A DNA stretch of 64,000 nucleotides from positions 106,682 through 170,681 of the forward strand of contig PHEB01000005.1 in assembly GCA_002842735.1 (NCBI GenBank). The letters run 5' to 3'. This document shows, piece after piece, positions 7,355 to 11,385 of this stretch. The position numbers and the translations under genes were made by a program. Each line of letters begins with the position of its first letter. Positions within the stretch are counted from its first letter, which is position 1. The stretch is from Alphaproteobacteria bacterium HGW-Alphaproteobacteria-7. GTDB taxonomy: Bacteria; Pseudomonadota; Alphaproteobacteria; Sphingomonadales; Sphingomonadaceae. The notes below the pieces were generated by a model. That model did not search any database. It saw only the letters and a program-made list of their open reading frames with translations, and was not told the origin of the DNA.

Positions 7355-8380
7355 CTATCCTTGGCCCGCCACCAGGCAGGCCTGCCCTTGCCGTTTAAGT
7401 GCGGCACAGGCGCGGGCGGCTTCAGCCTTGCTGGCAAAGCCGGTGGCGAGCAGACGGGTGACTTTGCCGCTCGGCACCAGCGTCTTCTTGGTGCCGGCCA
7501 GCGCCGCATTGCCCGAAAGCTGGTTCCACATACGATCGGCATTGGCCGCAACCCCGAAAGCACCCAGCTGGATGCGCCATGTTCCCTGCTTGGGCGCAGC
7601 AACAGGTTGCGGGCGCGTAGCGGGCCTGGGCGCAGGCGCGGCGACAGCAACCGGAGCGGCCACTGCCAGCGTTGTTCTGGGTGCAGGTTGCGCGGCGGGC
7701 TGGTTTGCAGCCGCAATAACCGGCGGGCGCATTGTGAGTTCAGCCGCAGCGAGTTCAGCCGCGCGCTGCGTCCTTGCGCCAGCCTCCAACTCCCGCGCCA
7801 GCGATTGCGCCTGACTGCGCTGGGCGGCAGGCACATATTGATCCATCTGCGCCAGTGCATCGCGCGCCTGCGGCAGGCCCGCACCATTCGCCAGCGTCAT
7901 CAAGGCATAGGCGCGCACCCAGTCGAGCGGGGCGTAATCCGCATTGAAGTGCGACAGGCCGAGAACATATTGCGCGCGCGGATCGCCGCGATCGGATGCG
8001 GCGCGAATCATCGGCATCGCCTTGTCCTGCTCGCCCTCCTGAAACAGCATCAGCCCGTAATTGTCGGCAGCCTTGATATGGCCAAGCCGGGCTGCCTCTT
8101 CATAGAGCTGGCGCGCGCGGGCATTATCAGTCTCGACCCCGCGCCCAAGGCGATAGGCCTGCGCCAGGTTGAACAGCGCATCGGCATCGCCAGCCGCCGC
8201 GGGACCCTGCCATTCAGCAACCGCACGAGTAAAGTCGCCGGCTGTCCAAGCATCGACCCCTGCTTTGACATCCGCCAACGCCGGAGCCGCCAGCAGCGAC
8301 AGCACCGCTACACCAATCGCTGCACGGGTTTCTGCCGGGATTACCGTTCCAGCTATGCGCCAAACCATCGAGCGTGCCAT
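7355..8380 (-). CDS. Sel1-repeat and SPOR-domain secreted protein
   Basis: This 341-residue exported protein has three parts. Residues about 1-36 form a signal peptide ending near PALADV. Residues 40-170 hold Sel1-like/TPR repeats (for example ALFNLAQAYRLGRGVETDN, AADNYGLMLFQEGEQDK, AQYVLGLSHFNADY). After an Ala/Pro-rich linker, residues 262-338 form a SPOR domain (TWRIQLGAFG ... GFASKAEAARACAALKRQG), which in known families binds denuded septal peptidoglycan. The ATG at 8380 is preceded by GAGG. It is divergent from the parA-like gene, and a second SPOR protein lies on the other side of that operon. A periplasmic role at the division site is inferred. Confidence 0.85.
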   Translation of the reverse strand: MARSMVWRIAGTVIPAETRAAIGVAVLSLLAAPALADVKAGVDAWTAGDFTRAVAEWQGPAAAGDADALFNLAQAYRLGRGVETDNARARQLYEEAARLGHIKAADNYGLMLFQEGEQDKAMPMIRAASDRGDPRAQYVLGLSHFNADYAPLDWVRAYALMTLANGAGLPQARDALAQMDQYVPAAQRSQAQSLARELEAGARTQRAAELAAAELTMRPPVIAAANQPAAQPAPRTTLAVAAPVAVAAPAPRPATRPQPVAAPKQGTWRIQLGAFGVAANADRMWNQLSGNAALAGTKKTLVPSGKVTRLLATGFASKAEAARACAALKRQGQACLVAGQG

Positions 8381-8510
8381 TGTTTTTGCCTCATGCAATG
8401 CTTCGTCATTGTTCGCACTTGCTATAGCCAAAACAAGGTTAGCAAATCATTGCCATCCGCAGCGGCGCTTCCCGGTGCGGCTGATGATTGTGTCCGGCCG
8501 CACAGACCAA

Positions 8511-8544
8511 TTGCATAAAGATGGCCAGTTGCATGAAGATGGCC
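8511..8544. repeat. Tandem 18-bp repeat at the ParA gene 5' end
   Basis: TTGCATAAAGATGGCC (8511-8526) recurs as TTGCATGAAGATGGCC (8529-8544), 15 of 16 identical with an 18-bp period. Each copy carries an in-frame ATG, which makes the ParA start ambiguous. Confidence 0.6.
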
Positions 8545-9375
8545 GAAGTTAACCCAAAATTAGGGGTATCCTGCGATCCCATAGTCATCCAGCCGTTGTC
8601 AGGTTCCGCAATAGGGCGGCCCGCAGCGGATCAACCCAGGGGGACCCAAGCGTTGCGTGTACTCGCTTTGGCATCGCAGAAAGGCGGATCGGGCAAGACC
8701 ACCCTGTCCGGACACCTCGCCGTCCAGGCCCAGCGCGCAGGCGCTGGCCCGGTCGTGCTGATCGACATCGACCCGCAAGGTTCGCTCGCCGATTGGTGGA
8801 ACGAGCGGGAGGCGGAATATCCCGCTTTCGCGCAAACCACCGTATCGCGGCTGGCCAATGATTTGCAGGTGCTGCGTCAGCAGGGCTTCAAACTGGCGGT
8901 GATCGATACACCTCCGGCCATCACGATGGCGATCCAGTCGGTTATCGGTGTGGCGGAATTGATTGTCGTGCCGACTCGCCCCTCTCCGCACGATTTGCGC
9001 GCTGTTGGGGCAACGGTTGATCTGTGCGAACGCGCGGGCAAGCCGCTGGTGTTCGTCGTCAATGGCGCCACCCCCAAGGCCAAAATCACTTCGGAAGCTG
9101 CGGTCGCGCTGTCACAGCACGGCACCGTGGCGCCGATCACGCTCCACCACCGCACCGATTTCGCCGCCTCGATGATCGACGGGCGCACGGTGATGGAAGT
9201 CGATCCCGAAAGCCGCAGCGCGGCCGAGATCACGGCTTTGTGGCGCTACATTGCTGATCGGCTTGAAAAGAATTTCCGTCGCACCGTGTTTGCTCCGGCC
9301 CCCAATGGCCAGGCGCAGCAGATGGGCGGCGTGCCGCGTCCCGCTGGTGGTTTCGGCCGCCGGGTAGCGCAGTAA
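8521..9375 (+). CDS. ParA/MinD-type ATPase
   Basis: Cytosolic ATPase of the ParA family, 284 residues from the ATG at 8521. The deviant Walker A is QKGGSGKTT, Walker A' is LIDIDPQGS and the Walker B region is VIDTPP. There is no N-terminal HTH, so it resembles the small type Ib ParA proteins. The start is uncertain: ATGs at 8521 and 8539 lie in a tandem repeat, and a TTG at 8653 just before the conserved core (RVLALASQKGG) has AGGGGGA nine bases upstream. No parB is nearby. The next gene encodes a ribbon-helix-helix-like protein, and both flanks encode SPOR proteins. I infer ATP-dependent positioning of something at the nucleoid, pole or septum; the cargo cannot be told from sequence. Confidence 0.88.
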   Translation: MASCMKMAEVNPKLGVSCDPIVIQPLSGSAIGRPAADQPRGTQALRVLALASQKGGSGKTTLSGHLAVQAQRAGAGPVVLIDIDPQGSLADWWNEREAEYPAFAQTTVSRLANDLQVLRQQGFKLAVIDTPPAITMAIQSVIGVAELIVVPTRPSPHDLRAVGATVDLCERAGKPLVFVVNGATPKAKITSEAAVALSQHGTVAPITLHHRTDFAASMIDGRTVMEVDPESRSAAEITALWRYIADRLEKNFRRTVFAPAPNGQAQQMGGVPRPAGGFGRRVAQ

Positions 9376-9393
9376 GCGAAGGGGGCCAAGGCT

Positions 9394-10005
9394 ATGTCCG
9401 AACCCGGTTTCGCCTCGCTCAGCCCGACCTTGCTCGCCCGCAAGGGTGGCGCAAAGCCAGCCATGCGCCCGCAAGTGGCCCCGCTGGCGCAAGACGGTTC
9501 CGCGCTCGCCGCGCTGGCCGATGAACAGCTCGAAGACCTCGGCTGGAATGACATGGGTGACGCCGACACCGAAGGCGGCGCTGACATCGTGCCGATCAAC
9601 GGTGGGATCACCACTGAAGATCTGACTCAGACCCACGGCCCGATCATACGCCGCCATCAGCGCCGACTCGAAGAACGGGTGCTTGCCGATGCCGCCATGA
9701 CCGGCCCGGACGACAGCAACGCTGACTGCGACAATGAGGAAGACGGTTTCGAGCGCGACGTTTCTTGGACAGCGCCAGTTGCCGTGCTTGCAGCCGCGAC
9801 ATCGAAACCACGCACTCCTGCGGCTCAATCAGGACGCCGCGCTGCTTTCACCCTGCGGCTTGATGCAGAACGCCACCTGAAACTGCGCCTTGCGGCGACC
9901 ATGCAGGGTGTCAGCGCGCAGGTGCTGGTGACCGAAGCGCTCGATCGATTGCTTGCCGAAGTCGATGAGCTTGATGTGATCGCCAAACACCTCAAACGCC
10001 ACTGA
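9394..10005 (+). CDS. Protein with C-terminal ribbon-helix-helix-like domain
   Basis: This 203-residue protein is not a named family to me. Residues 1-145 are acidic, low-complexity and probably disordered (LADEQLEDLGWNDMGDADTE is typical). Residues about 148-195 look like a ribbon-helix-helix DNA-binding fold: a strand (RAAFTLRLD), a helix (ERHLKLRLAATMQG), a VS turn and a second helix (VLVTEALDRLLAEV). It starts 18 bp after the ParA stop with a purine-rich ribosome site, so the two are surely co-transcribed. In type Ib plasmid partition systems (ParG, Omega) a small RHH protein is the ParA partner, so by analogy this could be the centromere- or cargo-binding partner. That is inference. Confidence 0.65.
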   Translation: MSEPGFASLSPTLLARKGGAKPAMRPQVAPLAQDGSALAALADEQLEDLGWNDMGDADTEGGADIVPINGGITTEDLTQTHGPIIRRHQRRLEERVLADAAMTGPDDSNADCDNEEDGFERDVSWTAPVAVLAAATSKPRTPAAQSGRRAAFTLRLDAERHLKLRLAATMQGVSAQVLVTEALDRLLAEVDELDVIAKHLKRH

Positions 10006-10071
10006 CCGCGCACGAACCACCGACCCATGCAACCACACCATGAACCAGCAGAATAAAACGGGGAATTGACA

Positions 10072-11385
10072 ATGGACCGCAGCATCAGACAAGCACCGCG
10101 TATCGCGCTTGCCGTCTCGACCGCGCTCGCAGGGCTGGCGCTGGCGGGGTGCACCACCTCGGCCGCGCCCAAGGCCGACATGTCGTTCGCCAGCGCGCAG
10201 AACGCGCTCGGCAAAGGCCAGGTCGACAAGGCCATTGTCCACGCCGAAGCTGCTGTGCTGGCCGAGCCGCGCAACCCCGGTTACCGCGCATTGCTGGGTG
10301 CCGCCTATCTCGAATCCGGCCGTTTCCAATCAGCCGCGACCAGCTTTGGCGATGCACTTGATCTCGGCGATGAAAACCCGCGCACCGTGCTAAGCTTCGC
10401 ACTCGCCAAGATTGCGTTGGGCGAAGGCCGTTCGGCATCGGCGGTGCTGGATGAATATGCCAACCTGATCGATCCGGCAGACCTCGGCCTCGCGCTTGCA
10501 CTGGCTGGTGAGCCGGAGCGAGGCGTGCATGTATTGGTCAATGCCGTGCGCGCCAGCGACCAAGTTTCGCCCAAGCTGCGCCAGAACCTTGCCTACACCT
10601 ATGCGCTTGCCGGTAACTGGCGCGCAGCGCGGGTCATGGCGGCAGAAGATGTCCCGGCTGACCAGCTCGACCAGCGCCTCACCCAATGGGCCGCAATGTC
10701 CGCGCCCGAACAGTTTCGGCAACGCGTTGCCAGCCTGCTGGATGTGACCCCGCAGATGGATGCAGGCCAGCCGCAGCGCCTTGCGCTCGCCAATTTCCCG
10801 AGCGACGCGATGATGTTTGCCGAAGCCGCTACGCAAGCGCCAGCGGAAATGGCGGCCGAAGCCCCCACCCCCGCCCTCGCTGCAGAACCGACCCTGGTTG
10901 CCACCTTTGCGCAAGCCTTTGAAAGTGCACCTGTCGCTCGGCCCGCATCGCGCATCAGCTATGTTTCGAACCCGGTGGTGCAGCAATTGCCCACCCGCGC
11001 CGAACGCGCAGCCCCTCGCTCTTCGCCCCGCATGGCCGCTGCATCATCGCAGCGCCGCATGGCCGCGACTGCCAGCGACAAGAACGCAGGCTCGCATCTC
11101 GTGCAGCTTGGTTCCTACAGCAGCAAGGTTGAGGCTGAACGCGGCTGGACTGTGCTCAAGGCCAAGTTCCCCGAATTGAAGGACCACAATCCCGTCATCA
11201 CCGAAGCGGTGGTGAACGGGCGCAATTTCTGGCGCGTCGCTGCAGAAGGCTTTGGCCCGAAGAGCGCGCAAAGCCTGTGTTCATCGGTCAAATCGGCCGG
11301 GCGCGGCTGCTTTGCCTATTCCGCATCAAGCCCGCCTGCAGGCGCGGTAAAGCGCGACGTGCGGATGGCATCGCGCGCACGTTAA
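10072..11385 (+). CDS. TPR and SPOR-domain lipoprotein
   Basis: Exported lipoprotein of 437 residues. The signal peptide ends in a lipobox (LALAGC, Cys near residue 27). Residues 35-200 hold tetratricopeptide-like repeats (AQNALGKGQVDKAIVHAEAA, GYRALLGAAYLESGRFQSAA). Then comes an Ala/Pro-rich linker, and at about 345-420 a SPOR domain (HLVQLGSYSSKVEAERGW ... NFWRVAAEGF). The ATG at 10072 follows GGGGA; an in-frame TTG lies two codons earlier. It is third in the ParA-RHH operon. Together with the divergent Sel1/SPOR protein it makes a pair of periplasmic proteins with the same architecture on either side of the cytosolic ParA pair. A hairpin repeat and a terminator follow the stop. Confidence 0.85.
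   Translation: MDRSIRQAPRIALAVSTALAGLALAGCTTSAAPKADMSFASAQNALGKGQVDKAIVHAEAAVLAEPRNPGYRALLGAAYLESGRFQSAATSFGDALDLGDENPRTVLSFALAKIALGEGRSASAVLDEYANLIDPADLGLALALAGEPERGVHVLVNAVRASDQVSPKLRQNLAYTYALAGNWRAARVMAAEDVPADQLDQRLTQWAAMSAPEQFRQRVASLLDVTPQMDAGQPQRLALANFPSDAMMFAEAATQAPAEMAAEAPTPALAAEPTLVATFAQAFESAPVARPASRISYVSNPVVQQLPTRAERAAPRSSPRMAAASSQRRMAATASDKNAGSHLVQLGSYSSKVEAERGWTVLKAKFPELKDHNPVITEAVVNGRNFWRVAAEGFGPKSAQSLCSSVKSAGRGCFAYSASSPPAGAVKRDVRMASRAR

Follow-up and report, generated by a model that had tools for sequence, protein, structure and literature searches.

We explored a four-gene cluster in a 64,000-nucleotide stretch of contig PHEB01000005.1 (Alphaproteobacteria bacterium HGW-Alphaproteobacteria-7, order Sphingomonadales), which is referred to here as the window. 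The cluster encodes a predicted exported Sel1-repeat and SPOR protein (A), divergent from an operon for a ParA-family ATPase (B, the window ParA), a ribbon-helix-helix (RHH)-like protein (C) and a predicted lipoprotein with TPR and SPOR domains (D). We tentatively read it as an additional chromosomal ParA with a ParG-like partner, a pair for which we predict a connection to the septum of dividing cells via the adjacent, predicted exported SPOR proteins, and our confidence in this reading falls just short of even. Domain make-up, conserved linkage, a peptide common to the ParA partners and the differing ends of these partners were established by calculation. All four open reading frames (ORFs) were confirmed at their places in the window, and the gene set of the original prediction, i.e. 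a Sel1-SPOR gene divergent from ParA, RHH and TPR-SPOR genes, was borne out by these frames and by Pfam. The ParA positioning systems described to date act on DNA or on cytosolic or polar cargo; a ParA with a septal wall-binding partner would, if true, tie the position of the nucleoid directly to the wall as it constricts, a problem that has long stood apart from the Min, MipZ and nucleoid-occlusion models. In the titles and abstract starts returned by searches of open-licence papers, no description was found of a ParA with SPOR partners, nor of this cluster in sphingomonads.

Conservation of the cluster was assessed in 99 genomes of the order, including the window's genome and fragmented assemblies, with A counted at E <1e-50 and D taken as the best listed match per genome (E 1e-31 or better). 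An orthologous ParA was present in 83 of the 99 genomes, at 58–95% identity outside the window's genome (the next relative being at 37%), and in 79 of these 83 the best D match was located no more than 6 kb from ParA. The best A match lay within the same distance in 66/83, either A or D in 82/83 and both in 63/83. The four misses for D comprise three genomes in which ParA is near a contig end (G002, G040 and G073; such numbers are our own handles) and one real split, G034, where ParA is approximately 85 kb from the A-D pair. Family f5 has many loci in which A is placed between C and D with the cluster still together, and the flanking genes vary, being pyrB/pyrC-like in the window's family and Hsp20-, Hpf-, RpoN- or LptB-like in others (names assigned by eye). 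The original prediction had proposed a search for co-occurrence beyond close relatives; this search was run, and the cluster proved to be kept across the order, as indicated by the linkage of D. Co-occurrence of A and ParA is modest, with ParA present in 69 of the 77 A-positive genomes (Fisher p 0.007, uncorrected for kinship).

Protein C, which was detected by sequence in 60 of the 99 order genomes, resembles in its sequence and modelled structure the layout of an RHH-type ParB (ParG or omega), consisting of a basic peptide, a linker and an RHH segment. AlphaFold2 modelled two RHH helices (residues 158–171 and 175–189) in blocks averaging >90 pLDDT (predicted local distance difference test); values were approximately 85 for the last helix and under 70 for the N-terminal 150 residues, and the acidic linker is likely disordered. 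A profile of 33 C homologues matched SvtR (6e-5), ParG (0.032) and omega (0.15) in the PDB, and a Foldseek search with the C model returned weak RHH matches (CopG, Arc and CdbA), none of them at E <0.001. The position of this RHH protein directly 3' of parA and its aliphatic and basic N-terminal tail are both features of the ParF-ParG type. ParG and omega are RHH partners of plasmid ParAs. Excerpts of PMC9499535 describe RHH-type ParBs as binding ParA via the N-terminus and controlling their own promoters, while excerpts of PMC12462528 and PMC10241942 describe aliphatic and basic N-terminal peptides by which ParB-type partners bind ParA. By analogy, the conserved basic peptide at the start of C (SLxxxLLARKGxAxP), modelled within a tail of low pLDDT, would dock on ParA.

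Among 917 other predicted ORFs, taken from the order loci and from L125–L144, none contains the strict form of this peptide in its first 90 residues. Additionally, a hidden Markov model (HMM) of the peptide identified a peptide-bearing ORF behind ParA in 169 of the 192 loci having at least 700 bp downstream, although this model was seeded by our own pattern and the conservation of the core is partly a result of that selection. The flanking S and L, which lie outside the seed pattern, are kept in 60 and 90 of 97 distinct RHH-type partners and in 13 and 13 of 17 SPOR-type partners, respectively. The system is widespread in the order, yet where listed C homologues carry a name from a source, that name is 'hypothetical protein' or HicB-like. 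In line with these names, which for some read 'HicB family antitoxin', C might be a HicB-type antitoxin and its neighbourhood a toxin-antitoxin remnant; C reaches 19.9 bits to Pfam HicB, but this is just below the cut-off of 21, its neighbours are ParA and D with no toxin partner adjacent, and both the linkage to ParA and the N-terminal peptide are conserved. HicAB was thus rejected, and we regard this explanation as extremely improbable.

Outside the order, ParA was sought at E 1e-55 or better in a class sample of 385 genomes (380 of them non-order) and was found in 52, of which 47 were non-order genomes. A total of 196 loci with a ParA identity of at least 47% were classed, loci below 47% being dropped before partners were counted; 55 of the 57 listed non-order ParA places were counted (G221:C89 and G254:C2 were left out), and the named loci partly duplicate class-genome loci (e.g. 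L186/L175, L199/L168 and L188/L177). The 55 non-order loci comprised 37 with a peptide-bearing partner lacking SPOR, nine with a partner carrying a transmembrane (TM) helix and SPOR, and nine in which no peptide was found. As judged by sequence, the same peptide is found on different proteins behind orthologous ParAs outside the order, which is a new observation. The 37 non-SPOR partners are mostly RHH-like, a simple strand pattern fitting 26 of them, while L146 and L160 look unlike RHH. SPOR-type loci account for 17 of 80 named loci, plus L189, L190 and L194, and include Parvibaculum sedimenti, Tepidicaulis marinus and metagenome-assembled genomes (MAGs) of Kiloniellaceae. Pfam SPOR was above cut-off in all four SPOR-type partners scanned (30.4–55.4 bits), and lysine and arginine were more numerous on the N-terminal side of the TM helix in 15 of 18 inspected, which fits a cytosolic peptide; these helices were called by hydropathy alone, that of L222 being weak (1.37). 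The peptide on TM-SPOR partners, together with the SPOR genes neighbouring ParA, indicates that the ParA-SPOR link exists both between adjacent genes and within one partner protein.

Five genomes (G107, G220, G240, G304 and G323) encode two orthologous ParAs each, one with an RHH-type and one with a SPOR-type partner, as if the two pairs had separate jobs. In the ParA tree, SPOR types lie among RHH types: the tree of 124 ParAs needs three label changes, and a single change was obtained in 0 of 200 bootstrap trees. A repeated origin of the SPOR-type partner is not claimed, because a single SPOR clade remains compatible with the data under the approximately unbiased (AU) test (p 0.122). A single-chain ParA-SPOR fusion in L189, L190 and L194 was considered and rejected, as ParA ends normally and the SPOR frame overlaps it; these three carry the peptide behind ParA and are ordinary SPOR-type loci, and L193, at a contig end, has the peptide too. 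Separately, the two copies in G429 differ, the peptide being carried on an RHH protein in L145 and on a third, non-RHH type of end in L146; in L146 and in L160 (G259) the peptide starts proteins that end in neither RHH nor SPOR, which may be further cargo ends. Many non-SPOR partners end in C-x-C after the RHH segment (30/57 in the order and 21/37 in the class, e.g. L054, L058–L063 and L065), an end kept by just 1 of 23 partners examined in the window's family. L198 is a SPOR-type locus on a contig labelled as a Gammaproteobacteria MAG, reflecting either misbinning or transfer.

The SPOR proteins of the window were characterised by domain searches and modelling. Protein A scored 58.5 bits for Pfam SPOR and 32.7 bits for Sel1, both above cut-off, and its N-terminus resembles, on reading, a signal peptide ending in ALA. 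Protein D, which carries a lipobox (LAGC), scored above cut-off for TPR_19 (38.9 bits) and SPOR (25.9 bits; the PF05036 cut-off is 21), its structure model displays a TPR solenoid and a SPOR-like fold, and Foldseek searches with this model returned generic TPR proteins, including NlpI, PilF and MamA. As SPOR proteins, A and D might bind denuded glycan at the septum. The whole genome holds four SPOR places at E 0.001, two being A and D; the remaining two are an FtsN-like bitopic protein, encoded between argS-like and nagZ-like genes (names by eye), and a second TPR-SPOR protein. The latter (L002 295-1764, contig 17) is similar to D in make-up.

The window ParA scored 47.6 bits to Pfam AAA_31, above cut-off, and 165.5 bits to NCBIfam NF041546 (ParA_partition), the latter being below the cut-off of 180 but still the best-scoring named family. 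Its deviant Walker A motif is of the ParA/MinD type KGGxxK[ST], and the K, GG and GKTT are invariant in 13 aligned orthologues. Translation most likely starts at the TTG at 8653, after AGGGGGAC, giving 240 amino acids (aa); the start at 8488 assigned by the ORF finder appears too long, because in-frame stops are present just upstream of the Walker region in several relatives. The MipZ profile matched at 32 bits over approximately 50 residues, short of a full-length match, while MipZ proper (Pfam E 5e-112) is encoded on contig 31, the genome's CpaE-like protein on contig 36 and its canonical parA-parB pair on contig 38, away from the window's contig. Based on this survey of the genome's ParA-family and SPOR proteins, the window ParA is additional, with half of the SPOR places beside it. 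No helix-turn-helix (HTH)/CTPase ParB was found beside the window parA, ParB_N matches being confined to other contigs; the statement of the original prediction that the locus is without parB is nevertheless misleading, given the RHH-type ParB layout of C and the canonical pair elsewhere. A link to the Tad pilus was rejected, as the CpaE-like ATPase is encoded elsewhere and D has no Tad family match in NCBIfam.

Of the 61 order loci, 40 carry a CtrA-like box upstream of parA (at least 8/9 matches to TTAA-N7-TTAAC within 200 bp), compared with 22 of 278 other upstream regions (Fisher 5e-21, inflated by kinship) and 8.8% of shuffles; among other (non-SPOR-type) class loci it was present in 10 of 46; TTAA-N7-TTAAC is given as the CtrA consensus in excerpts of PMC7200025. 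This box is suggestive of cell-cycle control, or it could equally be an operator of C instead. A repeat search of 8381–8660 identified an 18-bp tandem pair just 5' of the conserved block in the parA promoter. As a conserved centromere this pair was rejected, since the other 60 order loci showed no match of at least 13/18 in the 250 bp preceding parA.

Several observations weigh against coupling of the ParA pair to the septum. A and D are predicted to be periplasmic and C and ParA cytosolic, with no known link across the inner membrane in Sphingomonadales. Fourteen of the 83 ParA-positive genomes lack an A match at E <1e-50 (nine of them in genus g28). A and D are adjacent in 4 of the 16 genomes that are ParA-negative, and weaker or cut-off matches place them together in G006, G009 and G036 as well; A and D therefore do not need ParA. 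Outside the order, a SPOR match within 6 kb was found in none of the 37 loci with a peptide-bearing non-SPOR partner, and the neighbour form of the ParA-SPOR link is thus a trait of the order and a few Kiloniellaceae MAGs. These exceptions, seen among the named loci (L203, L227 and L236), carry ParA and the downstream partner, followed by one more gene and a predicted TPR-SPOR lipoprotein resembling D, and L213, also a Kiloniellaceae MAG, is arranged similarly, though the peptide-bearing partner was not detected there. The CtrA-like box occurs in none of the nine SPOR-type class loci, the matches of C to ParG and omega are weak, and the N-terminal peptide of omega alone is, according to excerpts of PMC9499535, not efficient in activating its ParA. 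Furthermore, a PAS-like gene (so called by reading, with no Pfam match in the one scanned) is located beside the ParA pair in 19 of 67 loci, indicating that the third partner differs by lineage. The loci with this gene are L128, L130, L131, L145, L154, L155, L158, L161–L163, L169, L201–L206, L227 and L236.

This varying third gene would also suit a pair that positions some other protein cargo (cf. PpfA and McdA), with help from the SPOR proteins at the new pole or in crossing the wall, and there are well-established examples of orphan ParAs that have protein cargos (excerpts of PMC9178275). However, by eye, the largest neighbour clusters contained no chemotaxis, pilus or compartment gene, and the genome's CpaE-like and MipZ proteins are encoded elsewhere; we consider such a cargo improbable. 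A stronger alternative is that ParA and the RHH protein constitute a domesticated, ParF-ParG-like cassette for DNA partition or positioning, next to which the SPOR genes lie through shared cell-cycle timing (e.g. under CtrA) while being uncoupled from it. The resemblance of C to ParG and omega, the CtrA-like box in the order, the persistence of the A-D pair in ParA-less genomes and the lack of SPOR neighbours at the 37 non-order loci all speak for this. Conversely, it does not account for the SPOR-bearing partners behind orthologous ParAs, nor for the linkage of D in 79 of 83 genomes despite rearrangements, and no conserved centromere-like repeats were found. The conserved upstream block is unique in the genome at up to three mismatches, and there is thus no obvious centromere, a point that also weighs against the septal reading. 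Overall, the cassette is a possible but doubtful explanation. The claim of the original prediction that ParA acts with SPOR proteins is upheld in part: the partners combining peptide, TM helix and SPOR support it independently, while the persistence of the SPOR pair without ParA and the 0/37 non-order neighbours do not. Since the peptide is borne by an RHH protein or by a membrane SPOR protein, and since two SPOR genes accompany it in Sphingomonadales, a ParA/adapter module dealing with the septal wall represents the simplest account.

For this septal module, we infer the function of the peptide, DNA binding, septal localisation and the coupling itself as follows. ParA-ATP dimers would coat the nucleoid, and the SLxxxLLARKGxAxP peptide of the partner would bind the ParA dimer and trigger ATP hydrolysis, such that ParA is cleared wherever the partner is concentrated, the cargo being set by the partner's other end. 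In Sphingomonadales this end is the RHH segment, predicted to dimerise and bind DNA, and the septal role in the window would be carried by A and D, with D perhaps acting as a TPR scaffold in the manner of NlpI. Some relatives, Parvibaculaceae among them, have the TM helix and SPOR at this end, which would put the ParA-activating peptide at the cytosolic face of the septum, a predicted geometry that is direct, with the peptide inside and SPOR outside. SPOR domains recognise peptidoglycan strands that lack stem peptides, and it is these strands that are enriched at the septal ring, as described in PMC6895207. In its broader form, the proposal is of an undescribed family of alphaproteobacterial nucleoid-to-septum couplers, in which, in some lineages, an inner-membrane SPOR partner lets denuded septal peptidoglycan directly set where ParA releases the chromosome, while in Sphingomonadales two SPOR proteins would share this job with the DNA-binding RHH partner; the peptide would then be an exchangeable docking tag, swapping DNA and cell wall as cargo. 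We offer this broader form as a conceivable extension, with rather low confidence. The features of the locus are compiled in Table 1.

Table 1. Features of the ParA-SPOR cluster, in window positions.
Feature	Position	Strand	Basis or remark
A: predicted exported Sel1-repeat and SPOR protein, 341 aa	7355..8380	-	Pfam; divergent from ParA operon
SPOR domain of A, aa 265-337	7370..7588	-	Pfam
18-bp head-to-tail pair, copies 89% alike, 5' of parA	8507..8542	+	Repeat search
Conserved block 5' of parA, GTTAACC..AATTAG..	8548..8576	+	Kept in relatives; CtrA-consensus-like (TTAA-N7-TTAAC)
B: ParA-family ATPase, deviant Walker A KGGSGKTT, 240 aa	8653..9375	+	Likely TTG start
C: putative ParA partner/adapter, 203 aa: basic N-terminal peptide, acidic linker, C-terminal RHH	9394..10005	+	
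Predicted ParA-docking peptide near the N-terminus of C, SLSPTLLARKGGAKPAMR, aa 8-25	9415..9468	+	Conservation
RHH segment of C, about aa 149-190	9838..9963	+	Pfam, AlphaFold2, PDB profile
D: predicted lipoprotein, TPR solenoid and SPOR, 437 aa	10072..11385	+	Pfam, structure model
SPOR domain of D, aa 339-415	11086..11316	+	Pfam, structure model

The closest relatives among described systems include ParF-ParG (plasmid TP228) and delta-omega (pSM19035), in which the RHH partner likewise has a basic N-terminal tail that is free. Like the window ParA, their ParAs are not known to carry an N-terminal HTH extension. The window system differs from both in being chromosomal, order-wide and SPOR-flanked, in that no conserved upstream repeat array was found, and in that the partner in relatives has TM-SPOR in place of RHH. 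Chromosomal ParABS systems have a ParA-family ATPase in common with the window locus, which is however without an adjacent HTH ParB. MipZ, the alphaproteobacterial ParA-family ATPase known for placement of the division site, belongs to the same family, but the true MipZ is encoded elsewhere in this genome and the match of the window ParA to it is short. PpfA positions chemoreceptor clusters and McdA carboxysomes. The pairs PpfA-TlpT, ParC-ParP and McdA-McdB likewise consist of a ParA and a partner with a docking N-terminus, the rest of which binds cargo (excerpts of PMC10241942), whereas the cargo end here is RHH or TM-SPOR and no chemotaxis or carboxysome gene was seen adjacent; excerpts of a review of ParA proteins (PMC9178275) list orphan ParAs in chemotaxis, cellulose and plasmid incompatibility, and McdA for carboxysomes. 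Finally, the SPOR-type partners are similar to FtsN, a bitopic SPOR protein, in having a predicted cytosolic N-terminus, one TM helix, a long linker and SPOR, but differ from it in that they start with the ParA-linked peptide and are encoded directly behind parA.

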